Assembly: GCA_029531795.1 (NCBI GenBank)
Contig: CM055954.1
Location: forward strand, 106,584-170,583
Length of the DNA stretch: 64,000 nt
Reading direction: 5' to 3'
Source: Sclerotinia nivalis
Lineage: Eukaryota; Ascomycota; Leotiomycetes; Helotiales; Sclerotiniaceae
Shown here: positions 12,869-63,654 of the stretch, in pieces
How the letters are laid out: each line of letters begins with the position of its first letter
Position numbering within the stretch: the stretch's first letter is position 1
The notes under the pieces: generated by a model
What the model was told of the DNA's origin: nothing
Databases searched by the model: none
The model's input: only the letters and a program-made list of their open reading frames with translations
Position numbers and translations under genes: made by a program

Positions 12869-13976
12869 AAACTCTTCTCTTTTTTTATCCTGTCTATCCC
12901 GTGGCCATACAACTTATTCGAAAACCGTCAACAAGTTTAGCTTTAAAAGAATAGCAAGATGCTATTATACAATGGCTAAGAATAACTATACTACTAACCA
13001 AGCTAAAAATTATTCAATTGATCCTTGATTTATTACTGGGCTTTTCGATGCTGAGAGTTCTTTTGTTGTAACAATTTTAAAAAATCCGAGGTACAAAACA
13101 GGATGGAACGTTCAAGCTAGAGTTCAAATAAAAATGCATGAAAAGGATAGAGTTTTAATCCAGTCAATTCAAGAATTTTTCGGAGCTATAGGTTATGTAT
13201 CTAAACTTAATAATAGTTCAGCCGTAGAGTTTAGAGTTAGTACTTTAAAAGATTTAGTTGACGTAATTCTTCCTCATTTGGATAACTACCCTTTAATTAC
13301 CAAAAAACGTTCAGACTATCTATTATTTAAACAAATTGTTTTACTTATGTTAAATAAAGAACATAATACTTTAGAAGGTATACAAAAAACAGTTAATATT
13401 AGAGCCTCTCTTAATACAGGTTTATCTAAAGATTTAAAAGAAGCATTCCCTATGACTATTCCAGTTACACTAAACCTGGAAAGCATAATTAAAAATAATA
13501 ACTTACATCCGGAATGAGTAGCAGGGTTTTCTACTGGAGAATCTAACTTTTTTATTGCTGTTCAAAAATCTAAAACTAAGAGTGGTTTATCTACTTCTTT
13601 ACGTTTTTCAATAGCTCAACATTCCAGAGATCTCTTATTATTAGAAAGCTTTGTTAATTTCTTTGGAAGTGGCTTTGTAATGAATTATAAAAAACGTTTA
13701 GTATGTGAATTTATTATTACAAAAATTGATCACATAGTTGAACATATAATTCCTTTTTTTGATAAACACCCAATATTAGGGTCAAAGCACTTAAATTTCT
13801 TAGATTTTAAGAGTGCGGCGTATATTATTAAAAATAAAGAACACTTGAATGAAGATGGGCTAGGTTTAGAAGAAATTTTACAGTTAAAAAGAAGAATTAC
13901 ATTACTTTACTCGAATAAGGCTATGAATAATCACAGTATTGTAGACGGCACAGAGAAATCAGATCAAAAAAGGTAG
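12869..13976 (+). CDS. LAGLIDADG endonuclease fused in frame to nad4L exon 1
   Basis: The nad4L frame runs straight into the intron and stays open (TGA 13026 and 13515 as Trp) to TAG at 13974-13976. After ~50 residues of linker the first domain reads WFITGLFDAESSFVV and the second WVAGFSTGESNFFIA. Such exon-fused endonucleases are normally released by proteolysis of the unspliced product. Motif 1 is FDAESSF and motif 2 STGESNF, so the acidic residues are Glu in place of the usual Asp/Glu-Gly pair; activity uncertain. The reading frame itself is intact. Confidence 0.85.
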
Positions 13977-14382
13977 AGTAAACCTCTGTCTAGTCATATT
14001 TTCAATATGGCAAAACCTTCAAATTGCGGGAAAGTCTTAAAGACAAATCTACCAAGTTAATACAGTAATGTGATTAATGGGACAGGTAATGACTCGTTGT
14101 ACGGTAAAAACGATTTGTATGAAGAAATGAAATAGATCATCCGCAGCCAAACACCAAAAACTACTGCTCGTTCAAGTGGATGGTGCGCAGTTCATCGACT
14201 AAATGTAGGTTGGTAAATAATTATATACGACTCTACTTTTTTTTTATAAAAAAAAGTTTTGAAGAAAAGATTGGACAAAAATTATTTGCTTAAGGTATAG
14301 TCAGGCATAACCGAAAAGTTATGGGAATACCCTAGCCAACCTAAGGGAATAAATAAAATTCCTAAGGTAAAGGGGGAAAACG
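12869..14382 (+). other. nad4L group I intron with LAGLIDADG ORF
   Basis: Interrupts the Leu codon near the nad4L C-terminus. Core lies downstream of the ORF: AAATTGCGGGAAAGTCTTAA near 14020, ATCATCCGCAGCCAAACACC near 14134, TTCATCGACTAAATG near 14190 and AGGTATAGTCAGGC near 14292. Ends in G at 14382. Confidence 0.87.
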
Positions 14383-14413: not shown

Positions 14414-14736
14414 TGTATTTAGCTATAATAACTTTACCTTTATTAGGATCAATAGTTGCCGGATTTTTAGGTAGAAAAGTCGGAGTTAGCGGAGCACAAT
14501 TTATTACATGTTCAAGTGTAATTGTAACAACCTTACTAGCAATCGTAGCTTTTTTTGAAGTAGGTTTAAATAACATACCTGTGTCAATAAACCTTTTTAG
14601 ATGAATAGATAGTGAATCACTAAATGTTTTATGAGGTTTCCATTTTGATAGTTTAACAGTGTCGATGCTTTTACCGGTTTTAATCGTTTCTTCTTTAGTG
14701 CATATTTATTCTATAGGATATATGAGCCATGATCCT
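14413..14736 (+). CDS. nad5: nad5 exon 1, NADH dehydrogenase subunit 5
   Basis: ATG at 14413. Reads [20 protein letters not shown] to [14 protein letters not shown], covering the first three membrane helices. 324 nt, phase 0. ND5 is the distal proton-pumping antiporter-like subunit of complex I. Ends CCT with the next exon starting CAT AAT (HDP-HNQRFF). Confidence 0.95.
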
Positions 14737-16098
14737 CGAGGTTGCGTTAGGGGAAAACGCATCTATGGGGATAAATTGTCAAACTCCGGGGATCTCCTAA
14801 AGCTTAAGGTACCAAGCTATAACTGAAAAGTTATAAGTGGCTGAAATAATTACTCAGGTATGGTAATAAGCCTTAAGATGAGTGAAAGCAAAATGGATTA
14901 TCGCGGATCTAAATTAATAATACTAAATAGTATTAGCGTAAAAGAGCAAAGAGTAGACGGCAGTTGATCGATTAAGCCACATTTAATCAATTTAAGGTGT
15001 ACTCTAGGAGGTTTCGAAAGAAACAGGGGTGTAAAACTCGGATTCAACATGCAACAAGGTTGAAACTCCTATGTCAAGGTCCCATCTAAACAATTCGATT
15101 TAAAAGAATTCTCTACCTGTGATTCTACTCACGCTTGCGCAGTAAATCCTGGGGTCTGATCTGGTTTAATAGATGGTGAGGGTTCATTTGGTATAACGGT
15201 AGATAGAAGTAAAACACGTAAATTAGGTTGACGTGCTCTACTAAAGTTTCAATTAGGTTTACATACAAAAGATCTTAATTTATTATATCTATTACAACAA
15301 CATTTGGGTGGTATTGGTTCTATTCATTTAGCTCAAAAGCGAGATATAGTTAATTATTCAATAGACTCAATTGAAGATTTAAATAAACTTATTCTTTATT
15401 TAGATAAATACCCGTTATTAACTCAAAAAGCAGCGGACTTTTTATTATTTAAACAAGCGGTAAAACTTGTAAATAATAAAGCTCATCTTACTGTTGAAGG
15501 TTTAAATCAAATAGTAAATATCAAAGCATCGATGAATTTAGGTCTATCTGAGATGTTAAAATCAGAGTTTACTGGATATACTCCGGTTGAAAGACCTGTA
15601 ATAAATTCGGATAATGTTTATTTAGACCCTGATTGGATTTCAGGATTTGTCAGTGCTGAGGGGAACTTTGATGTTCGTATGCCATCAACGAATAGTAAAT
15701 TAGGTTATCGAGTACAATTGAGATTTAGAATATCTCAACATAGTAGAGATCTTAGACTAATGGAAAAATTAGTTGAATATTTTGGGTCAGGAAAGGTATA
15801 CAAATATGGTGGCAAGTCTGCTGTTAGTTTAACAATATTGGACTTTACAGATATTACCAATGTAATTGTTCCATTTTTCAATAAAAACCCTATTATAGGT
15901 ATAAAACTCTATGATTATCTTGATTGATGTAAAATTCATAGTTTAATGGTTAATCGTGCTCATCTTACGATTGAAGGTATACAATCCATTAGAGAGATAA
16001 AATCTGGTATGAACACAGGTAGAGGTTTTTAAGATAAATAACCTTTGTTAATATCAAACACCCAATAAATCAGTTGCAGGATAAATTTGACTTAAAAG
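14737..16098 (+). other. nad5 intron 1, group I with LAGLIDADG ORF
   Basis: Core first: TCAAACTCCGGGGATCTCC near 14778, TGGATTATCGCGGATCTAAA near 14892, GTAAAAGAGCAAAGAGTAG near 14938, AAGGTGTACTCTAGG near 14993. ORF follows. Ends in G at 16098. Confidence 0.88.
15049..16032 (+). CDS. LAGLIDADG homing endonuclease (nad5 intron 1)
   Basis: ATG at 15049 to TAA at 16030-16032, TGA codons at 15091, 15157, 15229 and 15925 read as Trp. Two domains: GLIDGEGSFGITV and WISGFVSAEGNFDV. Each domain ends in the usual KASMNLGLS / SGMNTGR tail. No frame break seen, so a candidate functional two-domain enzyme with maturase potential. Close in layout to the rns intron ORFs at 34013 and 38025. Confidence 0.88.
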
Positions 16099-17322: not shown

Positions 17323-18200
17323 ATATTGCCGTGGGCGGTAGTAATACTGCTCTGATTATATAACTATTAGCGGGAAACTCCTAAAATCTTTTTATAGGAT
17401 ACTGTGGGTACTACTTTTTTATCTTGGTTTTATTTTTTATCTTTGTTTTCTTATTTTGCCTAGCTTGTGCTATACTCCCTAATCTTGGTTATATTATTTT
17501 GTAAAATAATCCTGATTTGAATAAGAAGCTTCTATACACTGCTTTATTTTTTTCCTTTTTTTATTATATATATTTTCTTATTACGTAAATAGTATTATAT
17601 AATAATCAAAAGTTTCCTGCCTAAAAAAAAAATATTCTATTTTTTTTTTTAGCTTGCTTATTTTTTCTTTTGTCCTTCGGACAAAGAAAAGGGCTCCGCC
17701 CAAAGCTGAAACTGGGCGGAGCCCAGGGAAAAATTTTGGAAGCAAGGATAGAATTAAGGAAACTACATGAAGACTAATGCAAGATATTGCTAGAAGCATA
17801 CACAGACGATAAAAATTAAAAAGAATGAACTTATAGACTGGTGTGCAGCTTTTTTTTTTAAGGAAAAGAGAAAGAGTACATACTATTATATCAGTGAAAT
17901 GGACAATCCGCAGGAAATGAAGTTAAAAATTCTTATAGAATACAAGGAAGCTTAAATTAAAAACATAAAGCTTGTTTATATGTATTCTTAGGTTTAAATT
18001 TAAAGTAAGATCCTCAGAGACTACACGTTATACCCCATGCTTGCTATTAATTAGCAGCCGGCTGCATATATTTTTTTTTCAAAAAATAAAGCCAGCACGG
18101 GTGAAGATATAGTCCAATTTATAGTTGAAAAGCTATTAGGGAGGCTTGCCAAGCTAAGATATAATAAAAAAGTTGTTAGTAAAGCAAGCTCCTAAAATTG
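16345..18200 (+). other. nad5 intron 2, group I with LAGLIDADG ORF
   Basis: ORF in the 5' half, core after it: ATTAGCGGGAAACTCC near 17367, GGACAATCCGCAGGAAATG near 17902, CTCAGAGACTACACG near 18013, GAAGATATAGTCC near 18103. Between the first and second core segments a reverse-oriented TTACGTAA element (~17544-17620) and a hairpin GGGCTCCGCCCAAAGC.../GGGCGGAGCCC near 17690-17725 are inserted into what should be a loop. Ends in G at 18200. Confidence 0.85.
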
Positions 18201-18374
18201 AATATAGATTATGCTACAGTATTTTCATTAGCTCCTTTTGTTAGTGAAAACATTGTTACAATTATAGGTATTTGCTTATTAATTGGTGCTATGGCTAAAA
18301 GTTCTCAAGTTGGATTACATGTCTGGTTACCGATGGCTATGGAAGGTCCTACACCAGTTTCTGCATTAATACAT
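18201..18374 (+). CDS. nad5: nad5 exon 3
   Basis: 58 codons: [20 protein letters not shown] ... [19 protein letters not shown] to PVSALIH. Includes the conserved lysine in AKSSQVGLH that lies in the proton path of antiporter-like subunits. Ends CAT at 18374; the next coding bases are the micro-exon. Confidence 0.95.
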
Positions 18375-18904
18375 AAAAAAGTGAGAATAGGTTAATCACT
18401 CTTGTGTACAAGAACCAAATTCCGGGGACACCCTAAAGCCCTAGTAACCAAAGTCAGCTAGGAAACAGCTAGACCGGCCTGATTAATGACTCAGGGTATG
18501 GTAATATCACTAGAGATTGCAGTAATGTAAATGGGTTATCGCGGATCTAAATCAGAATTTGTCTGTAAAAGAGCAACGAGTAGACGGTTCTTCAACTATA
18601 TACCTGTGTGTTTATAGCTGTAAGGTGTACTCTAGTCAGCGGGAAACCGGCTCTTGGACGAAATTAAGTAATTCAAGATTAAAGTTACTGCAATAGCCTT
18701 TCCGTAAAGTTATTTACATATTATTAGTTTTTCACCTTTTTTTTTTATTTTTTTTTAATTATAATTTTATTATTACGTAATAGATTTCTTATCATTATAA
18801 AAAAAATAAAAAAAATTAGGGGGGCTCCGACTCAATAAGCGAGAGTTATTACTTAGAAAAATACTACTTTTATGAGTTAATAAGAAGGATAAATTTGTAG
18901 TTCG
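18375..18904 (+). other. nad5 intron 3, group I without ORF
   Basis: 530 nt. Core: CCAAATTCCGGGGACACCC near 18415, GGTTATCGCGGATCTAAATC near 18534, CTGTAAAAGAGCAACGAG near 18563, AAGGTGTACTCTAG near 18621. The stretch 18413-18605 is almost the same as in cox2 intron 5496-7316. No ORF; an AT-rich TTACGTAA element (~18735-18822) occupies the place where ORFs sit in relatives. Confidence 0.85.
18735..18822 (+). repeat. AT-rich TTACGTAA element
   Basis: Same sequence as ~963-1060 in a cox2 intron: T-rich start, ATTATTACGTAATAGATTTC centre, AAAAAAATAAAAAAAATTAG end. Confidence 0.72.
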
Positions 18905-21040: not shown

Positions 21041-21179
21041 ATTTAAAAGTTAAAGATCCAGTCCGATCCTTAGGTATACTTAAGGTGTGTTATTCAAGAG
21101 CAAGGAGGATGAAATATATACTTTTTATTATTTAATATATATTTTTGTAATGCTCGTTAAAGAATAACCAACATAAATG

Positions 21180-22371
21180 AACAGCAGGTGTATATTTACT
21201 AATGCGTACTAGTCCTTTAATAGAATACAGTTCAACTGTATTAATATTATGCTTATGATTAGGGGCTATAACTACTGTATTTAGTAGCCTTATTGGATTA
21301 TTTCAACAAGATATTAAAAAAGTTATTGCCTATTCTACTATGAGCCAATTAGGTATGATGGTAATAGCAGTAGGTTTATCGTCATATAACCTTGCCTTAT
21401 TCCACTTAGTTAATCACGCTTTTTACAAAGCATTATTATTCCTAGGTGCCGGGGCTGTAATTCATTCAGTTGCGGATAACCAAGATTTTAGAAAATATGG
21501 AGGGTTAAGACCCTTCTTGCCTTTAACTTATTCTGTGATGTTAATAGCAAGCCTTAGCTTAGTTGCTTTCCCGTTTATGACCGGGTTCTATAGTAAAGAT
21601 TTTATTTTAGAATCTGCATATGGACAGTTTTACTTTAGCGGTACAGTTGTTTACTTTATAGCTACGATTGGTGCTATGTTTACGACTTTATATAGTGTGA
21701 AAGTATTATATATTACTTTTTTAGGGCCGGCTTTAGGTCCCATGACTAATTATAATAATGCACATGAAGGTAATTTATTTATGAGTTTACCCTTAGTAAT
21801 TTTAGCCTTATTCTCTATATTCTTCGGTTATATGACTAAAGATATTTTTATAGGTTTAGGGTCTGGTTTCTTTACGGATAATTCTATATTTATTCATCCA
21901 ACACATGAAATTATGCTAGATACGGAATTTGCTGTACCAACCTTCTTTAAACTTTTACCTTTGGGTCTTACATTATGTCTTAGTACATTAGCCGTTATCA
22001 TATCGGAATTTTACCCTGGATTGATTGTGAGATTTAAGTTCACAAGATTTGGTTACAACTTATTTGGGTTCTTTAATCAAAGATTCTATGTAGAAATGTT
22101 CTATAATAATTTTATTACAAATAAAGTGTTACACCTAGGTGGTCTAACAACTAAGGTTTTAGATAAAGGAAGTGTAGAGCTTGTTGGTCCTTACGGACTA
22201 GAGAAAGTGTTATTAAGCCTTAGCCAGAATATAGACAAGCTAAGTACTGGTATTGTTACTAGTTATGCCTTGTATGTTTTAGTTGGTCTGGTTTCTTTTA
22301 TGTTTATTTTTTACTTAAATGAAAGTTGATATAGTTTAATTATATTAATTGGTTTAGGACTCTTGAGTTTA
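21180..22371 (+). CDS. nad5: nad5 exon 5 with first C-terminus
   Basis: Starts A ACA GCA GGT ([14 protein letters not shown]) after G at 21179. Holds [19 protein letters not shown] and [16 protein letters not shown], key ND5 motifs, then the C-terminal helices to [12 protein letters not shown]. There is no stop: the frame continues as an endonuclease (22372-23568). Assembled nad5 to this point is ~650 codons, the usual length. The C-terminal ~210 residues are repeated in diverged form at 23821-24463. Confidence 0.92.
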
Positions 22372-23568
22372 AATCACAATAACCCTGATTTAGACATGGA
22401 AAGACGTTCTGTACAACATCCTATTAAATCTAGTCACGTGGCATTAAATAAAGCTAACGCGTCTGGTTTAATTGGTAGGAAAGTACATGTAAATGGAGGT
22501 AATAATCTGTTTCATGTAAATAATACTCCTGGACGAAATTACAGTACGTCAGCTGCACTACCTGTTGTTATGTATTCTTACCCCTCAAGGGATAGAAAAC
22601 AAATATATGCAGATAATAAAGAACGTTCTGGTATATATCTATGAGAGAATAAACTGAATCAAAAAGTTTATGTGGGTTCCTCTCAGGATTTGAGGAAGAG
22701 AATCAAGGATTATTTTGATAATACTAATTTAAATAGTTCCAAAGGTTCTATTATATGTAAAGCATTAATTAAACATGGTCATGACAGTTTTAATCTAAAG
22801 ATTTTAGAATATTGCTCTCTTGAGGACCTGTTGGTAAGAGAGCAATACTATATTGATACTCTCAAACCTGAATATAATATTTTAAGTTTTGCGGGTAATT
22901 CACGTGGATACATCCACACTGAGGCAAGTAAAGAACTAATGAGCATAGGTCGTAAGGGTTGGGAATATACATCAGATGAATTAGCTAATTTTAGTTCTGA
23001 AAGTGTTAGAAATAAATCGACTGTGCTAACTAATTCTGTCACTGGTGAGACGCTTACATATCCCTCTATGAAGAGTGCGGCAGAGTTTTTAGGTACAAGT
23101 GCTACTACGTTGAGAAGCTATTTATCTAAAAACCTTCCTTATAATGACTACGTTATTAGCGTAAATGAGGGAGATGAGCTCTCATCAAAGCCACAGTCTC
23201 TTTTATTAACGAATATACAAGATTCTAGTACTAAAGAGTTTTCTACGATTAAGGATGCAGCAGTTTTTTTAGAAGTAAGTCGTTCAAGTTTAAGTTATGC
23301 TTTAAACAAACCAAATAGTGGGGAACAAAATGGCTGTAAAATCGGTGATTATCTCGTGACCAGAATAGAGAGTGAAGTGAATTACATCAGACCAGGAAGC
23401 GTGTCAGTAGAAGTTACAGACTTAGAGAATAATACAACTAATGTTTATCCTTCTATAACCTTAGCTGGACAAGCTATTGGAGTTTCAAAGGCTAGTGTAA
23501 GTCAGTATATAAGGGGTAAACAAGCTACACCGTATAAAGGTAGATATATCTTAAAATACATAAGCTAA
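22372..23568 (+). CDS. GIY-YIG endonuclease fused to the nad5 C-terminus
   Basis: Same frame as nad5 exon 5, to TAA at 23566-23568. After ~80 linker residues, the nuclease domain reads SGIYLWENKLNQKVYVGSSQ, then LRKRIKDYF, ALIKHGHDSFNLKILEYC and REQYYIDTLKPEYNIL: the GIY, YVG, Arg, His and Glu/Asn positions are all present. Three NUMOD1-like repeats follow (PSMKSAAEFLGTSATTLRSY, STIKDAAVFLEVSRSSLSYA, PSITLAGQAIGVSKASVSQY). No group I core is recognisable between this ORF and the second nad5 C-terminus. Intact and a strong candidate for an active mobile endonuclease. Confidence 0.9.
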
Positions 23569-23820
23569 CTACATTAGTAGCTTGTGTAGGTAAAAGTTTG
23601 TTTATAGAGCAAACTTCAGTTTACAATTAGCCCGCTTCTAGCGAAGCAAAAAAAATTTGTTTTTGTACGCTTTACTATGTGGTGATTAAGACTTAAACGT
23701 GAGTTATAGAATTAATCGGGTGGTGGTGGGTAACTACTAGGTAAGTGAATGCTAAAACAAATAAGGGTTCTAAGTATAAGGATAAACATGCTTTGCAGAA
23801 GGTGGTGTATTTAGGAGTCG
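23569..23820. other. Junction between GIY-YIG ORF and second nad5 C-terminus
   Basis: 252 bases without coding similarity. Contains a G-rich block GTGGTGATTAAG ... CGGGTGGTGGTGGGTAACTA (23677-23739) that recurs at 25759-25830, and GCGAAGC microhairpin sequence near 23640. No group I or II core identified. Confidence 0.5.
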
Positions 23821-24463
23821 ACCTCTTATAAATTATAAGAATGCTCACGAGGGTGACTTGTTTTTAAGTATTCCGTTAATTATATTAGCTTTATTCTCTA
23901 TTTTCTTTGGTTACATTACTAAAGATATTTTTATTGGGTTAGGTTCAGGTTTCTTTGCAGATAATAGTATATTTATTCATCCAACACATGAAATTATGCT
24001 TGACACAGAGTTCGCAGTGCCTACATTATTTAAATTGTTGCCATTGGTATTTACTTTATCTTTAAGTGCGCTCGCTATAATCTTATCGGAATTTATTCCG
24101 ACTGCTTTAGTTCACTTCAAATTTACGAGACTAGGGTATAACCTTTTTGGGTTTTTTAACCAACGTTTTTTTATCGAAATGTTCTATAATAAATATGTTA
24201 CTAATTTTATCTTAAACACAGGGGGTATAACTACTAAGTTTCTGGATAAAGGTTCAGTAGAGATGATTGGGCCTTATGGTTTAGAAAAAGGTTTAATGGC
24301 TTTAAGTAATAATATTAACAGATTAAGTACAGGAGTAGTAACAACCTATGCTTTATACGTACTAGTAGGTTTAATTTTCTTTATGATTTTACCTTATGTA
24401 GCTGTTTTTGATAACAGTTTAGTTATATTAATGCTTTTTGGTTTGTTAAGTCTATGTTTTTAA
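23821..24463 (+). pseudogene. nad5: Second, diverged nad5 C-terminus
   Basis: From ~23828 reads [20 protein letters not shown], then [27 protein letters not shown] and so on to [14 protein letters not shown] and TAA at 24461-24463. It parallels 21750-22371 residue for residue but with many synonymous and some amino-acid differences, and unlike the first copy it ends in a proper stop. No start or splice signal found. The layout matches a displaced resident C-terminus after capture of a foreign C-terminus plus endonuclease. Whether it is ever expressed (for example by splicing) is open. Confidence 0.85.
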
Positions 24464-25633: not shown

Positions 25634-26420
25634 TTAGCAAGCGTGCTGAAACCTGCTCCTTTCCCTCCGGGAGCGGAATGTATTTTTTATTTATTTATTA
25701 TTCTTATATCCTTTTTTTTTTCTTTTTTTTTTATTGGAGTTGTCTTTGTATATTCTCTTGTGTGGTGGTTAAGTCTAATTTACATTAAATTGTTGTAAAA
25801 GAATTAGCCGGGTGGTGGTGGGTAACCCACAGGATTTATACTCTGTTAAAGATTTATACCTGACTTTATGGATTAACCATTGCAAAGCAGGGCCTTTTGT
25901 TAACTATGTGTATTATTACTAAGAATATTATTTGATAAAGCAATATTCTTAAATAAAGCAGTATACTTAATCCTGCTGAGATAAAGAAGAAAGCAAAAAA
26001 AAAAAATACCTATCTTTACAAAGCCAAGGGATTTAGATATTAAAAACAATAAATACTGTCTTCATATTTTGTGCATTAATAAACTAAATAAAAATAAATT
26101 GGTTTACACCGTTTTTTTTTTTACTTTATATATTTTATAATGTTTTTTTACAATCTAACCTATGTGGATGTTTCTATTAACAAATCCTTATCTATGATAA
26201 GTATATCACTTCTTTGCGGAGCACAATATTTCTTTGCGATACTTTTCAATGTATGGTTAAAACGCCTATGGTTTTGCGTATTTGTCTGATAATAAACTTT
26301 TATACCATTTCCCCCTGCTAGCGAAGCAGGCTGGGGGGGTACAAAAAAAAAAGGCCCAAGTGTATATATTGAATTTGTATGAAATAGCACAGCTAAACCG
26401 GAGACAGCCTATCACCTTTA

Positions 26421-43244: not shown

Positions 43245-44696
43245 GTTATTATGGGATAAATTATCAAACTCCGGGGACCTCCTAAAGCTTATGATACCAA
43301 GCCGTTCATGAAAATGAATGAGTGGATGGGTTAATCACTCATGTATGGTAATAACTCAGTTGATAATCGAAAGATTAATGGATTATCGCGGATCTAAGTC
43401 AGCAATGTTTAAAGTTGTTGTAAAAGAGCAACGAGTATATGGTAGTTATTTTGGATCAGTTAATCCGAAATTAAGATGTACTCTAACGGGTCTCGAGAGA
43501 GACTATCTAATTAAATATTCTTGTGGGCTTTGCTCACCCACACGGGTGAGCGTAGCGATGGCACGGGTATCTAACCAAATAAGTAGGTCGGTTTTATATT
43601 CTTCTTTAAGAACTAAACCGGAAATTAATTTAAATACTAACCCTGCGCAAACTAAACCATTAGGTAAGATGGATCCCTTTTTTTTAACGGGGTTTACAGA
43701 TGGAGAAGGCTCGTTTAGCCTACAAATCAGATCCAGCGATAATTACACATCTAAATGAAAAGTTCAATATAGCTTTCAAGTAGGTATACATACAAAAGAT
43801 ATTGCCATATTAGAAAGTATACAACTTACTTTAGGTGTAGGTAAGATCTATACAATGGGGAAAGAGGGTGTACAATTTAGAGTAGAGTCTCTTAAAGATT
43901 TATCTGTAGTAATAAACCATTTTAATGAATATCCTTTACAAACAAAAAAGCAGCTTGATTTTAAATTATTTAAGTTAGCTTTATCGTGTGTAAAGAATAA
44001 AGAACATTTAACTCCAGAAGGGTTAAAAAAGTTAATAACTATTAAAGCTTCAATGAATAAAGGTCTTACTGGTGAGTTAAAAGCTTTATTTGCAGACATT
44101 ACTCCTATTACTAAGCCTGAGCCAGATACAGGATTAATTATATATCCTCAATGATTGGCAGGCTTTATCTCGGCTGAGGGTTGTTTTAGCGTTTTCATAA
44201 CTAAATCTCAGTATGTTAAACAGGGATATCAAGTACAATTGAGATTTAGATTAACTCAACACATACGGGACGTACAACTACTGGAGAGTTTAGTTAGCTA
44301 TTTAGGCGGTACAGTAGTTAAATACAGAGATGCGGCTGATCTACAAGTTATTAAACTTTCAGTCCTTATTGATAAGGTATTGCCTTTACTTGAAAAACAT
44401 CCTGTACAAGGAGTAAAATTTAAAGATTATTGCGACTTTATAAAAGTAGTCGAAATAGTAAAGAATAAAACTCATTTGACCGCTGAAGGGTTGTCTCTAG
44501 TACAAAAAATAAAAGCTGGGATGAGCACAGGTAGATTGTAAGTTTGTGAGGCAGTGTTAATTATGTGGGGTAATCGTATTCCCTTTCGCCCTGGCCTATG
44601 GTCTAGTATCTAGGCCGTAGGCCAGGTGTATTTAAATTAATTTTTTTTTTTTTTTTTTTATCTATTTATTAGTATGATCTATTTGGTTTTGTGATA
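43245..44696 (+). other. nad6 intron, group I with LAGLIDADG ORF
   Basis: Core: TCAAACTCCGGGGACCTCC near 43264, TGGATTATCGCGGATCTAAG near 43379, GTAAAAGAGCAACGAGTATA near 43420, TTAAGATGTACTCTAACGG near 43470. A hairpin GCTCACCC-ACAC-GGGTGAGC (~43531-43550) is inserted just before the ORF. A 19-base T tract precedes the 3' end. Splice bases uncertain by about 2-5. Confidence 0.82.
43558..44541 (+). CDS. LAGLIDADG homing endonuclease (nad6 intron)
   Basis: ATG 43558; the frame is open upstream to 43318 through the core. TAA at 44539-44541; TGA 43756 and 44152 as Trp. Motif 1 FFLTGFTDGEGSFSL, motif 2 WLAGFISAEGCFSV, endings ASMNKGLT and AGMSTGR. Intact. Confidence 0.87.
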
Positions 44697-45224
44697 GTAT
44701 CCGCACTATTTTTAATTGGTTTATTTTTAAGTATTTCTTGTTATCTTATAATGCTTGGTATTAATTTTATTGGTCTGTCTTATTTATTAGTATACGTAGG
44801 GGCTGTATCTATTCTGTTTCTATTTATTTTAATGTTAATAAATGTTAGAATAAGTGAGTTATTAACTGACACCAGCAATAGTATACCTTTAGCTATTATT
44901 ATTTCTATTTCTTTTTATTCTTCTGTACATTCTACAATACCCTATAGTATTGTACCTTTTACTAGCTATATTTCAAATATAAGTAATACATTTAATGATA
45001 TATTAGATATAATACTATTATATATTAATAATGGTATAATATCTTTTACTAGTAATTTTACTAATACTAGTTTTACTACTACTAATATTTGAGATGGTAA
45101 TTTGTCAGAAACTAGTCATATAACAAGCATAGGTAATATTCTTTACACTAGTCATAGTATATGGTTAATAATAACTAGTATCATACTTTTATTAGCAATG
45201 GTAGGTTGTATCGTTATTACTTTA
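44697..45224 (+). CDS. nad6: nad6 exon 2 with first C-terminus
   Basis: VSALFLIGLFLSISCYLIML, YVGAVSILFLFILMLINVRI, a Thr/Ser/Asn-rich loop (FTSNFTNTSFTTTNIW, with TGA Trp at 45090), then the last helix HSIWLIITSIILLLAMVGCI and VITLK. No stop follows; the frame runs into a LAGLIDADG ORF. The last-helix segment is repeated at 46294-46422. Confidence 0.92.
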
Positions 45225-46277
45225 AAAAATGACAATTATAAAGAAACGTCCAATGGTGCCTTATCTAAAGATAAGGCACCATCTAATAATTTAAAAGGTG
45301 TAGTCTCTTCCTACCCCCTGCAAAGCGGGGTCAAAAGTAATCTTAAAAGAGGTTATTCTACACTAGCTATTGATAATAGTACTTTAAAGGAAGGTTTAAA
45401 TTTGGATCCTTGATTTATGACTGGTTTGTCTGATGCAGAAGGATGTTTTTCAGTTAGTGTTTCAAGAAATAGTAATTACAAATTAGGCTGAAGAGTATTA
45501 GCTAGTTTTACTATAGGTCTTGGAAAAAAAGACCAGGCATTATTGGAACTTATTAAGAATTACTTTGGTGTGGGGGTTATTTATGATACACATAGTGCTA
45601 ATGTATCTCAGTACCGTGTCCAACTTGTAAAGGATCTAGATGTTATATTTAAACATTTTGATAAATATCCTTTAGTTACCAAGAAGAGAGAAGATTACAT
45701 ACTATTTAGAGAGATCTTAGAAATAATTAAGTCTAAGGATCACCTTACTGACGAAGGATTTGTAAAACTTCTCTCGTTAAAGAATAGCATGAATTTAGGA
45801 CTTTCCTTGGAATTAAAAAAAAGCTTCCCTGATTTAGAGCAAATTGCTAGAACGGAAGTAAAAGATACAATTGAGCACAATCCCCAATGAGTGTCGGGGT
45901 TTACAACTGGAGAGGGTTGTTTTGCGGTTTCGGTTGAGAGTGCGGCAACAACAGCTTTGAAGTATACAGCTAGAACTCGGTTTATTCTTACTCAGCATAA
46001 ACGTGACTATCTTTTGATGGAGAGTTTTAAAGAATATTTTCAATGTGGTAGTGTTGTACTATCTAAGGACGTAGCTACTTTTATGGTTAATAACTTATCA
46101 GAGCTTAATAAAAATATTTTGCCCTTCTTCAATAAATACCCAATTATGGGTAAAAAGCAATTAGACTATTTAGACTTTACTAATGTTGTTAATTTAAAAC
46201 TTAATAAAAGCCATTTAACGGTGGAAGGTTTAAATGAGATTCGTTCTATTGTAAATAATATGAATTCAAAAAGATAG
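45225..46277 (+). CDS. LAGLIDADG endonuclease fused to the nad6 C-terminus
   Basis: Continuous with nad6 exon 2 (frame 0) to TAG at 46275-46277, TGA 45411, 45489 and 45888 as Trp. After a ~60-residue linker: motif 1 WFMTGLSDAEGCFSV, motif 2 WVSGFTTGEGCFAV, endings NSMNLGLS and NNMNSKR. Only 16 bases separate its stop from the second nad6 C-terminus, so there is no room for a ribozyme. This is an endonuclease gene attached to a protein gene, not an intron ORF. Frame intact. Confidence 0.9.
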
Positions 46278-46293
46278 AATGTAAACAAGTTTT

Positions 46294-46422
46294 CCCAATA
46301 CTAGTTATAGTATATGACTAATATTAACATCTATTATTTTACTTCTTTCTATGGTAGGAGCCATAGTTATAACTATAAAACAAAGAGAAGTTAAAAGAGA
46401 AGTAAATAGTATGAATACCTAG
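46294..46422 (+). pseudogene. nad6: Second, diverged nad6 C-terminus
   Basis: Reads PNTSYSIWLILTSIILLLSM then VGAIVITIKQREVKREVNSM, N, T and TAG at 46420-46422 (TGA Trp at 46315). It aligns to HSIWLIITSIILLLAMVGCI VITLK of the first copy and adds the charged tail and stop that the first copy lacks. No start codon or splice signal of its own. Interpreted as the resident 3' end displaced by the endonuclease unit. Confidence 0.85.
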
Positions 46423-57437: not shown

Positions 57438-58740
57438 AGAGATAAAGAAGCTAATTCATATTATTTACAAACTAATTTTTTAGAATGATTTGCAGGATTT
57501 GCAGATGCAGAAGCTAATTTTAATATTAAAATTACAGGGCTAACTGAAAGTACCCGCTCCGCTAAGAATGTCCAGTTTACATTTCAAATAGGTTTACATA
57601 AGGATGATGAACCAGTATTAAATTATATTATGAATAATTTAAAATGTGGACATATTTCAAAATCAAAAGATAGAATAAATTTTTTTGTAAATGATCAGAA
57701 TTCTTTATTACATGTAATATTACCTATATTTGACTTCGTGAATCTTAATAGTTCAAAGTATCATCATTTTGTAATATTTAAAAAGGCAGTTACTTTACTA
57801 AGAGATAAAAGTCATTTATCTGATAAAGGTAAATTAGAAATAATTAAATGTAAAAACCAAATGAGTAATATGTCTGGTCAATGGGTACCAAGTTCTATTA
57901 ACAGTAAAATTAAAATTACTAAATTTTGATTAGCAGGGTTTATTGATGGAGAAGGGTCATTTTCAACTAATAAATTTGTACCTAGCCACGCGCGGCTTGC
58001 CGTGACGGCAAGCCTGATAAAAAAAACTTCAAACTTCGTTTTTTTTTATAAGGCGGCTAGATTTAAATTAGAAAATCATATTAAAGAGTTAGAATTATTT
58101 AATAAAATTAAGGAGTTCCTTAATGTAGGTAATATGTTAATTTCTGCCTTCATGCAAGACCAGTACTGGTCTTGCATGAAGGGTAGAGAATAGATAGATT
58201 TAATAGTAACCCTACTATAGTATTAGAAGTTAATAAAATAAAAGAACTTAAAGAAGTGTTAATTCCATTGATATATGATAATAATACTATTCTTTTAAAA
58301 ACTTTAAGGTCTGAAGATTTCTCTTTATGATTAAATTTAATTAATATTTATTATAAAGGTTATCATACTATACCTGAAGGTAAATATGTATTTGATGCTA
58401 TTAAATTACATATTAACAAGTATAGAATGACAACTAATATTTCTTTACTTGATAATGTGCAACGTATTTCCATTTATGAAATAGAAAATCTATTATCTAA
58501 ACTTTATTTAATAGACAGTCCCCCTTCGGTGAAATTAAACAGGGAGTTAGATACTATAGAAATACTGATAAACTAGTAAGTGAAGCTATAAATCTTGTTG
58601 TTATAGATACTAGTGGTAATAATACTATTTATTCTAGTATATCTGATTGTGCTAAAAATCTAAAGATAGGAAGGAATAAAATTAAACAGTGTTTAAGTTC
58701 AGGTGAATCATATAAAGGTTATAAGTTTGTTTTAAGTTAA
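57438..58740 (+). pseudogene. LAGLIDADG endonuclease b with NUMOD1 tail, broken by palindromes
   Basis: Motif 1 WFAGFADAEANFNI, motif 2 WLAGFIDGEGSFST (57928). Then a GC palindrome GGCTTGCCGTGACGGCAAGCC (~57995), FKLENHIKELELFNKIKEFL, and the 36-bp palindrome at 58147 which ends the frame. Beyond it the protein resumes (VLEVNKIKELKEVLIPLIYD ... NVQRISIYEIENLLSKLY), a CCCCCTTCGG block near 58522 shifts it again, and a NUMOD1-like tail SSISDCAKNLKIGRNKIK ends at TAA 58738-58740. Same domain plan as the cox2 ORF at 1359. Confidence 0.82.
58147..58182. repeat. 36-bp palindrome, copy 11, inside an ORF
   Basis: Perfect copy within the second domain of endonuclease b; the coding frame stops 10 bases after it (TAG at 58191-58193). 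Confidence 0.93.
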
Positions 58741-59003
58741 TATATAGACTTATTTTTGAAAATAGAGTCAATAGCAAAAAAATCTTATTAGATATTAAGA
58801 TAATTTGCTGCCAAGTGTATATTGTTAGGCAATATATATAGGTCCAACGACTAGCTAACAAATATTATGTTACTTTAGTTTTCAAAGTAAAAGAATGGCA
58901 TTAAACTCTACATATGAAATGTTAAACTTCGACAATATATAAGTTTAATTAAATTAATATGAATACATAGTCTAAACAATAATGTGGGTTATTGAAACAT
59001 TTG

Positions 59004-59173
59004 TACATGTTATGATCGGTACAGCTTTCATAGCTGTGGGTTTATGACGTGTTTTGGCTTACCATTCCACAGATAATCATCATCTGGGAATGGAGGCAAG
59101 TATACTATATTGACATTTTGTGGATGTGGTATGACTTTTTTTATATATTTCTATATACTACTGGGGTTCATAG
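59004..59173 (+). CDS. cox3: cox3 last exon
   Basis: (L)HVMIGTAFIAVGLWRVLAYH, STDNHHLGMEASILYWHFVD, VVWLFLYISIYYWGS and TAG at 59171-59173. Contains the conserved HFVDVVWLFLY final helix. TGA Trp codons at several sites. Confidence 0.95.
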
Positions 59174-59431
59174 TATATAAAGAATATTAAAATAAATATC
59201 CTTATTTATATTATTTCATTAATATTTGCGGTGTTATTTTAATAGCTGTATGTTTCTACGAAGTTCTTACTTAGCTTATTATGTGTCCAAGTGAAGAGGG
59301 TGGCCCTAGTGAACCTAGTGGACCGGCCCTAGTGAACCTAGTGGACCGGCCCAGGTGGATCCGGGGACTGGTTTAGAGAAAAGGAAGATATATGGCAGGA
59401 AATTAAAGAAGATGCAAGAGACTTATACTAC

Positions 59432-59467
59432 CTTTCATGCAAGACCAGTACTGGTCTTGCATGAAAG
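59432..59467. repeat. 36-bp palindrome, variant copy 12
   Basis: CTTTCATGCAAGACCAGT / ACTGGTCTTGCATGAAAG: outer pair changed on both arms, symmetry kept. Copy 13 at 61118 shares the change. Confidence 0.92.
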
Positions 59468-60072
59468 CAGAGGATGTAGAATGTTTTAGATAAAGAGGAG
59501 GCTCGGACAAAGAGCAGGTATATAGAAAAGATGATAATCTATTAAATAATCTTTACCATTATTCCTTTTTATTTTGGGCGGAGCCCCAGAGTCCAGTAAA
59601 CTACTAATTAGTTATAGATACGTAGCTTATCCCTTAGAAGTATTTTAGGGTTAAACCCCGCTAACTATAAGGAAAACCCGGGAGAAAGCATAAATTAAGA
59701 CTGGCTCTATGTACGTGTAGGCACTAATTTGTGATAAAGCCCCTTACTTCTTTAACTAGCTAGCTTAGTAAATATATATGCCAAAATAAACATATATGTT
59801 TTATTGAATAAGCAAGAATGTTATATTTAATACTAATAATTAATATAAAAATAAACTTTTTATCTTTATTATTTGGTTATAAAAGGCATATACTTTTTGC
59901 TTATCTCTTATCCATTTTGCCTAGTAAGGAGTCTAAGTATGAATAATAGTATACTTTTATTATATAATTATGATTATTAATTTATAATCAATTTATTAAT
60001 TAATTATAAATTATAATTTATAATAAGTACACTTTTTAAATATTATAGAATAATAATATTATTCACCCGCCT

Positions 60073-60153
60073 TATTTTTTCCCTTTTTTTAGTTATAAAT
60101 ATTTACGTAATAATTATATATTTATAACTAAAAAAAAGGGAAAAAAAAAGGGG
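60073..60153. repeat. Element B, shortened copy
   Basis: TTATTTTTTCCCTTTTTTTA, ATATTTACGTAATAATTA, TTTATAACTAAAAAAAAGGG and GAAAAAAAAAGGGGG, followed by GACAGAAGCAGCCCCC as at 47158. It lacks the TACAATAC segment of the left half. Confidence 0.83.
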
Positions 60154-60262
60154 GACAGAAGCAGCCCCCTTTTTTTTTTTATTTTTGTCCGCCCACCTGT
60201 TTAGACTATTCGCTATACCTGCCCTGTTCCCTGACACTCTAATAAACTTCCATTCCCCTTTA

Positions 60263-60477
60263 TTTTTTCCTTTTTTTTTTTAATAGTTTAATTACTACGT
60301 CCGGAGGACGTAGAAATTAAACAAGACGGAGCCGGCTAGTTTAATTACTACGTCCCTTATCCTCCGGATTAGGGGGGGGGGGACGTAGAAATTGAACAAG
60401 GCGGAGCCTAGTTTAATTACTACGTGGTAATTAAATTATAATTCTAAAAAAAAGGCAAAAATACAGTAGTGATAAAA
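60263..60477 (+). repeat. Element C, copy
   Basis: TTTATTTTTTCCTTTTTTTT, TTTAATTACTACGTCCGGAG, AGACGGAGCCGGC, CCTTATCCTCCGGATTAGGG, AAGGCGGAGCCTAG, AAAAAAAGGCAAAAATACAG. Same order as 24551-24757. Confidence 0.88.
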
Positions 60478-61023
60478 GGGGGGGAAATAAAATTTAAAGG
60501 TAGATTTTAAAAGATTAATTTATTTTAAAAATAAAATATAGTCGAGGGTTATTAACATATCAGAAAAACTTCCTTATTTATAAAGGAAATCTTTATTTAT
60601 AAAGGAAATCTCTATTTAAATAGAAAAGGGAGTAGACTAAATTATATATAAATTTAAATATAACCCTACAGCAGCAGCTTAGCGTGCGTGCTTGTTTTCA
60701 ACTCTCATATTTATCTTGACTATATATTAAGCAGCGCTAATTTTTAAGTTTATTACTAAATTTATACAATATTAGTTCTAATGTTTATTAGTAATACATA
60801 GTAAAAAATAAAAATACCAAAAGATAAACATGTCATTATACGTTTCTTCAGCAAAAATAACTTATTTACCCTTATGTTGGCATTTTTATTATTATACGTA
60901 GCTCAAAAAAATATTAAATAATTTTTATTTTTAATTACTTGATGTCTATTTTTTTTTTCTTATGGCCTGGTTAAGTATTAAATACTGTTTTAATAAACAT
61001 TGCACTTGTGCAGTGTTTATTAA

Positions 61024-62596: not shown

Positions 62597-62716
62597 ATGA
62601 GAATTTTTAAAAGTCATCCTTTATTAAAATTGGTTAACTCTTATATGATCGATTCACCACAACCAAGTAACCTAAGTTATTTATGAAATTTTGGTTCTTT
62701 ATTAGCTGTTTACTAG
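62597..62716 (+). pseudogene. cob: cob 5' fragment (apocytochrome b)
   Basis: ATG 62597: [20 protein letters not shown] then [17 protein letters not shown], the standard COB N-terminus, with TGA Trp. After codon ~37 the similarity ends abruptly and TAG follows at 62714-62716. A full gene would need ~385 codons. No intron core follows and tRNA genes come next, so this is a truncated duplicate rather than a first exon. Confidence 0.85.
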
Positions 62717-63470
62717 AGAACATAGAGTAATACCTGTCGAAGGAGGTATATATAAAGAATCAGAGATATTAAATAGGAATAAAATGGTTTATGAACAATA
62801 TATGAGAAAATCTATAACATGCGTGTTGCAGATATTTCGCTATGTTGCGTTGAAGTCATAAAAAGAAGACTTACAGTAAGATTGGGATAAATTGTCGATG
62901 TAGAAGCAAGCACTTATAGAGACCATGATACTTATACTGCACTACTTCTTCTACTGCATAAACTAAATCTACTTCTACTACATCTGCTGCTTATACTCTT
63001 CCTACTTCTACTACATCTACTTCTATTTCGCCATCTTTTACTTCAACTATAGATTTACAAATGAAATGCCAAGTATATTTTACGATATAGATTAATTTCC
63101 TTATCAATTAATGAGCCAATAGCAAAGTTATTTTGACATAGAGTTAGTTTTAACTTTAAGTTTAATATTACTATGTTTTATTCTTAATATAACTGAACTA
63201 TATGTTTATTAGTTAGCTATTTATTTTTACTAGTAATAGCTATAGTTGTAAATATATGATCTTTAATGTCATTCTTTGCCAAACAAGTTGTTTAAGTTCT
63301 TGTTTATCATAACATATTCTTTAGTTAGTTGTTATATAAATATTCTAAATATTACCTCTTACTATTATAAGGAGGAGATTTATGTTATATAATGTAAATT
63401 AAAGCCCCTTAATATAACAGGTTATATAAATAAGGTTAATTAACCTTGTTTATATAATTTTAAGGTAATA
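62717..63470. other. Spacer after cob fragment with Ser/Thr-type trinucleotide repeat
   Basis: 62940-63060 is dominated by ACTTCTACTACATCT-like repeats that would encode Ser/Thr if translated, but stops interrupt. 62718-62850 reads PVEGGIYKESEILNRNKM in one frame, unassigned. 63390-63460 has inverted repeat AAGGTTAATTAACCTT. Confidence 0.5.
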
Positions 63471-63542
63471 GGTTCCTTAGCTTAATTGGTAAAGCGTATT
63501 CTTGATAAGGATATGTTCGGAGTTCAAGTCTCTGAGGAATCA
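63471..63542 (+). tRNA. trnI: tRNA-Ile(GAT)
   Basis: Acceptor GGTTCCT / AGGAATC, D arm GCTT-AATTGGTA-AAGC, anticodon loop TTGATAA in ATTC / GGAT, T arm CGGAG-TTCAAGT-CTCTG. Confidence 0.94.
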
Positions 63543-63654
63543 TTTTAAGTGCATTATGCTTAATTATATTATGCTGAATAATATCTTAAATTTAATCTTT
63601 AACTTATTAATATTAACTAGTTAATAGCTAATATATAACTATATGCTATTATAA

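Follow-up and report, generated by a model that had tools for sequence, protein, structure and literature searches.

A foreign-type 3′ end fused to a GIY-YIG endonuclease in mitochondrial nad5 of Sclerotinia nivalis: a probable endonuclease-borne replacement of a gene end

The 3′ end of nad5 in the mitochondrial DNA (mtDNA) of Sclerotinia nivalis is present twice, which raises the question of which end is resident, where the other came from and how it entered the gene. The window, i.e. the whole stretch of 64,000 nucleotides that was analysed, forms the end of contig C31, which is 170,583 bases long and belongs to a 50.3-Mb assembly. It is of the fungal mitochondrial type, with TGA read as tryptophan and with nad4L-nad5, rns, nad6 and tRNAs present. 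A single open frame (21151-23568, stop codon 23566-23568) joins the last resident nad5 exon to a first copy of the nad5 end (copy 1), which leads by way of a linker to a GIY-YIG/NUMOD1 endonuclease (Table 1). Copy 1 is in phase with upstream nad5 and the endonuclease ORF lies between both ends; the second (copy 2) terminates in GLLSLCF followed by a stop codon. A first-pass annotation had already described the C-terminus as occurring twice, once fused to an intact GIY-YIG ORF and once with a normal stop, and this is borne out. Its start for the region, 21750, was slightly late, the foreign-like part beginning with the preceding residues GPALG.

Table 1. Features of the duplicated nad5 3′ end and of the other duplicated gene ends. 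Positions are those of the window, except where C31 is given.
Feature	Position	Strand	Basis
Last resident nad5 exon, 180 residues (AGVYLL...ITFL)	21184..21723, start approximate	+	100% to P0135 over 180 residues
Junction residues GPALG replacing usual TNPNG; proposed recoded target	21724..21738	+	Junction survey of relatives
Copy 1, foreign-type nad5 3′ end, without stop codon	21739..22371	+	Identity to relatives; clade 100/100
Linker from nad5 to GIY-YIG domain, with RNYST at 22534-22548	22372..22626	+	Coordinates; also in P0121 to that protein's end
GIY-YIG endonuclease with NUMOD1 (GIY-YIG 22627-22878; NUMOD1 about 23404-23511)	22627..23565	+	Pfam, relatives
Element tail, non-coding, 253 bases	23569..23821	+	Final 11 in-frame residues recur in P0003; no Rfam group I match
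Copy 2, displaced resident nad5 3′ end, intact, own stop	23822..24463	+	98.6% of 213 residues to P0135; Sclerotiniaceae clade 95/90
nad4 duplicate ends	C31 ORFs 58100-60682 and 62618-63598		79% of 299
nad1 duplicate ends	C31 80659/85128		91% of 115
atp6 duplicate ends	C31 91511/93760		85% of 68
nad3 duplicate ends	C31 ORFs 101927-102400 and 104127-104537		82% of 91
nad6 duplicate ends	C31 151730/152883		67% of 36

The fused frame encodes 805 residues. Pfam places an intact GIY-YIG domain (PF01541) at residues 493-576, scoring 49.2 bits against a cut-off of 22.6, and a single NUMOD1 stretch (PF07453) at 752-787, where three NUMOD1 motifs had originally been read. Relatives of the GIY-YIG ORF (48 of 48 matches listed) include P0194 (93%), P0195 (94%) and P0196-P0200 (40-60%). 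Protein searches with nad5 listed the best 120 of 2347 and the best 120 of 5561 matches, the latter after scoring the 7999 best candidates; full ND5-GIY fusions fall outside the length limits of this second nad5 search (5561 matches) and of the GIY-YIG search. The named close matches of nad5 are Sclerotiniaceae (Botrytis, Monilinia, Ciborinia and Sclerotinia). Two listed proteins, P0229 under 'Streptococcus agalactiae' (GIY/NUMOD-type) and P0058 under 'Rickettsiales MAG' (fungal-type nad5), seem to be contaminants of fungal mitochondrial origin. All relatives were compared as proteins; at the DNA level, copy 1 gave 0 matches in the viral and genome contig sets. Within the 50.3-Mb assembly, with copy 2 as query and the best candidates scored, no third or nuclear nad5 end was found beyond the two known places. 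A 32-base motif recurs with 88% identity in the element tail (23703-23734) and downstream of nad5 (25795-25826), and is perhaps a 3′ flank signal.

The two copies are well diverged. They share 438 of 606 aligned bases (blastn, E 4e-90), and in a codon alignment 153 of 211 codons specify the same residue, 76 of these by a different codon. Fourfold third positions differ at 32 of 44 sites, in keeping with the many silent differences reported earlier. Base composition is uninformative on origin (GC3 0.245 in copy 1, 0.239 in copy 2 and 0.244 upstream). Uninterrupted nad5 proteins ending in GLLSLCF were found in P0001, P0002, P0132 and P0135. Of these P0135, with 652 residues at the protein level, matches the upstream exon and copy 2 as given in Table 1 and copy 1 at 73% of 212 residues. 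Read along the fused frame, identity to P0135 is 156/156 before the junction and then 120/152 after it. Because P0135 matches both exon and copy 2, and because identity drops at the junction, copy 2 is taken as the old end and copy 1 as the newcomer. Copy 1 is 93-94% identical to P0121 and P0123, and 88% identical to P0125 of Botrytis cinerea.

Trees were built on the residues from the junction to the motif GPYGLE (quick tree, 195 rows; careful tree, 55 rows, after 56 had been picked and P0158 dropped for its long branch); the 55 columns beyond GPYGLE are weakly resolved. Copy 1 falls in a seven-row clade with P0121 to P0124, B. cinerea P0125 and P0128, and copy 2 in a 16-row clade with Monilinia, Ciborinia, S. 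borealis and P0135 (support in Table 1). On sequence grounds, copy 2 is the resident end and copy 1 is of separate origin, which agrees with the foreign source that the first-pass annotation had thought likely for one of them.

Most probably, an endonuclease-borne foreign nad5 end has replaced the resident one, carried by an intron-less mobile element of the Allomyces atp6/Glomus kind. Such an element would have entered nad5 between TNPNG and the following P as a cassette that opens with an entire foreign nad5 3′ end, continues with a GIY-YIG endonuclease and closes with the 253-base tail. The endonuclease would cut an uninterrupted nad5 near TNPNGP, and repair off an element-bearing mtDNA would copy the cassette in. 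The cassette would supply nad5 with a working end, the old end staying downstream without a start. No splicing would be needed, because the cassette brings its own working end. Moreover, the altered junction, GPALG in place of TNPNG, could shield the product from re-cutting by its own enzyme. Recombination between the two ends may later delete the endonuclease and leave a mosaic nad5. Two features count against replacement: copy 2 is fully open with no visible decay, and the fused frame would add about 400 residues to ND5.

The intact state of copy 2 would be expected if the stretch between exon and copy 2 were a spliced intron holding an extra exon copy, so that copy 2 is the end in use. Joining GGT (21738) to CCT (23822) keeps the frame and the residue count, and there is a precedent in Tremella nad4-i2, one of six such predicted introns, which cDNA showed to be real (PMC7315562). 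However, no group I match appeared at E<=10 in 21650-23850 or in the tail region 23540-23850 (RF00028), and group II matches were likewise absent at E<=10 in 21650-23850 and in the tail alone, while three intron cores of nad5 do match the group I model, at 14686-15026 (E 2.7e-7), 17967-18137 (E 1.6e-4) and 18358-18719 (E 7.5e-6). The sensitivity of the scan is limited, since in a 14-kb stretch it caught the first of these and missed the other two; those appeared in short stretches, in which the element was scanned too. With no match in these stretches, a group I or II intron was rejected as the identity of the element. Group I introns usually end in G, with U before the intron. Here the frame-keeping cut between GGT and CCT would end the removed piece in A, and other cuts shift the length by one residue. 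We consider a spliced intron unlikely.

Among 193 listed nad5-type relatives, the junction reads xxP[NAS]G in 150, GPA[LS]G in 14, SP[AV]LG in 16 and TPALG in 1, with 12 not parsed. One of the 14 GPA[LS]G proteins, P0155, groups in the tree with the SP[AV]LG sequences. In P0121, copy 1 is followed by most of the linker, where the listed protein stops. P0003 carries the last 11 residues of the element tail before the resident end of another species, i.e. the same 3′ junction. The B. cinerea protein P0125 resembles copy 1 as far as GPYGLE (146/152) and the resident type beyond it, where 37/39 residues agree with Monilinia and 23/39 with copy 1. Recombination between both ends of an invaded gene would leave such a pattern. 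The order is reversed in P0129, which is resident-like first and copy-1-like past GPYGLE (33/39). In Rutstroemia P0131 and P0134, and likewise in P0010, P0130 and P0153, the only change is the altered site GPASG, and all five share the pattern of P0009 where copy 1 and Monilinia differ. After GPASG, P0130 equals P0009 (152/152 and 39/39), a protein with an ordinary TSPNG.

Copy 2 itself is Monilinia-like to GPYGLE (152/152) and not after it (22/39). GPYGLE (about 22187-22204) is a second, recurrent breakpoint, at which kinship switches in B. cinerea, in P0129 and in copy 2/P0135. Because the tail of copy 2 is unlike Monilinia, this breakpoint needs more than the nad5 element, and not all mosaicism stems from it. 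The relatives look like stages: genes never invaded, a gene with the same insertion junction, a mosaic gene from which the element has gone (B. cinerea) and genes with a recoded site only (Rutstroemia). These stages come from different species, and we infer their order in time.

Comparison of the mtDNA with itself, listing alignments of at least 14 residues (shorter duplicated ends are missed at this threshold), revealed duplicated 3′ ends in six genes, namely nad1, nad3, nad4, nad5, nad6 and atp6; the resident copy was assigned for nad5 only. Both nad4 and nad1 have a LAGLIDADG domain behind copy 1. In nad3, Pfam finds NUMOD1, and a GIY-YIG part broken over frames was recognised by eye. In atp6 no endonuclease ORF lies between the copies, and a LAGLIDADG ORF follows copy 2. 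The first-pass annotation had seen two endonuclease classes at work in adjacent complex I genes. A second class is indeed found in nad6, with its LAGLIDADG-type ORF, and the duplicated ends extend to six genes; however, the directly adjacent nad4L has a plain group I intron (13965-14323) followed by a last exon encoding RGSIAIEYK, and a capture of the same sort is not supported there.

Individual loci add detail. In nad6 (window 44673-46407) the LAGLIDADG-type ORF, read from the frame, is in phase, and the second 36-residue end (67%) lies at about 46300. The nad1 region (C31 80206-85499, L016) holds a fused end, a LAGLIDADG ORF, a GIY-YIG ORF, additional short nad1 pieces with another LAGLIDADG ORF (83182-84831) and a last nad1 end, an arrangement that looks like captures in series. 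In nad4 (C31 58100-63598, L015) the gene runs into a fused LAGLIDADG ORF, and its displaced end opens with 30 identical residues and seems to retain an intron with its own LAGLIDADG ORF. Between the atp6 ends, an ORF of NPGPRG repeats (C31 92354-92947, L017) gave a weak Pfam collagen match below the cut-off.

The duplicated ends bear on whether the endonuclease ORF is a mere bystander to a recombination or introgression between mtDNAs that swapped the 3′ end of nad5. The atp6 duplicate, without an endonuclease ORF between its copies, and the mosaic breakpoints at GPYGLE, away from the junction, would suit such an exchange. However, an endonuclease ORF or its remains follows copy 1 in five of the six duplicated ends, P0003 repeats the 3′ junction of the element, and plain recombination would replace the old end rather than keep it behind an inserted element. 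A bystander role is accordingly given a low probability, somewhat below that of the intron. That nad5 duplicated its own end locally and the copies then diverged, as the tandem layout with 2083-base spacing might suggest, is hardly credible: copy 1 has kin in other species, and constraining it to group with copy 2 and its three identical rows carries a cost of 83 log units, a sister pairing ruled out by the AU test under the model used (p 4.4e-33), in agreement with the earlier view that this is not a recent local duplication. The AU test did not reject a position of the copy-1 clade next to the Sclerotiniaceae ends (p 0.213), and the copy may accordingly have come from a close relative or from one outside the sample.

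Endonuclease-borne replacement would further entail use and translation of a hybrid message, and release or trimming of ND5, which might be freed from the endonuclease at RNYST in the linker. Within the stretch of up to 90 residues that precedes the endonuclease motif, R-x-[YF]-[SA]-[ST] is found in 9 of the mtDNA's 24 such ORFs, against 0.24 expected from shuffles and 1 in stretches of the same length behind the endonuclease motif. Among GIY-YIG relatives it is found in 4 of 20 (0.11 expected, 0 behind the endonuclease motif). A looser form, R-x-[YFL]-[SA], was found in 11 of 24, against 2.74 expected. Part of this excess is selected, because the motif was spotted in the same sequences before it was tested there. 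It also appears 8 times in the 20,819 residues of 73 ORFs outside endonuclease patterns, some of which look like decayed endonuclease ORFs. The motif presumably resembles the sites of mitochondrial matrix peptidases, and R-x-[YF]-S-T before the endonuclease domain could be a protease site that releases the endonuclease. The C-terminus of ND5 is expected to face away from the matrix, which counts against the fused frame and against trimming at RNYST. As a tentative generalisation, and one more likely wrong than right, complex I 3′ ends of these fungi may be traded between species as endonuclease cassettes that bring a full replacement end and an altered, uncuttable target, need no splicing and are lost by recombination, leaving resistant mosaics such as the B. 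cinerea nad5 relic, with the endonuclease cut off at R-x-Y/F-S-T by a mitochondrial protease.

Replacement of gene ends by endonuclease-borne copies is a known, rarely documented route to mitochondrial genes that are mosaics of several species. The present data suggest that Botrytis cinerea nad5, as published, is a mosaic too, and that nad genes of Sclerotiniaceae should be split at such breakpoints before use in trees. The five further genes of the same mtDNA offer replicates, and with the altered target, self-protection in an element that has no intron could be tested directly in the laboratory. In a literature search, mostly of titles and the openings of abstracts, no report was recognised of this element in nad5, of mosaicism in B. 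cinerea nad5 or of fused homing endonucleases being released by a protease.

Among the closest known systems is the atp6 hybrid of Allomyces macrogynus (Paquin, 1994), in which a foreign gene end was reportedly brought into a resident mitochondrial gene by an endonuclease element. The nad5 element differs from it in gene, host and endonuclease. The mobility of the Allomyces element was tied to its endonuclease by biochemistry, as related in PMC3630166. That report describes mobile-ORF hybrids in atp6, atp9, cox2 and nad3 of Glomus sp., with hybrid transcripts detected by RT-PCR; the 'general mobility route' suggested by the first-pass annotation is thus one already described, for Glomus and for the Allomyces atp6 cited there. 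As in nad5, an inserted foreign C-terminus lies in phase with the gene and has an endonuclease ORF behind it (GIY-YIG in atp9), and the resident C-terminus, closest to that of a relative, lies downstream; the Glomus atp6 insert also lacks a stop codon (PMC3630166). Unlike the Glomus cases, the present one concerns nad5 in another host, is known from sequence and has relatives with apparent loss states.

Part of nad5 is likewise duplicated in Tremella fuciformis, whose 'introns with N-terminal duplication' include nad5-i1 and vary within the species. There the extra part is found in cDNA, and a gain-and-loss model ends in a replaced gene part; Tremella differs in being a basidiomycete with variation inside one species (PMC7315562). 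The element SPAM9 of Ceratocystis cob also alters a neighbouring exon, and protection from self-cutting was proposed for it, but the exon stretches are 29 and 24 bp there (PMC8208691), against a 640-base gene end here. In Endoconidiophora the C-termini of cob and atp6 are duplicated close to endonuclease ORFs (PMC6279837), and extra truncated copies of atp6 or atp9 are noted in S. borealis and B. cinerea (PMC4162613). Taken together, the nad5 layout, as read from the sequence, equals that of the Glomus and Allomyces mobile-ORF hybrids and fits the gain-and-loss model from Tremella; its set of relatives is unusually full.
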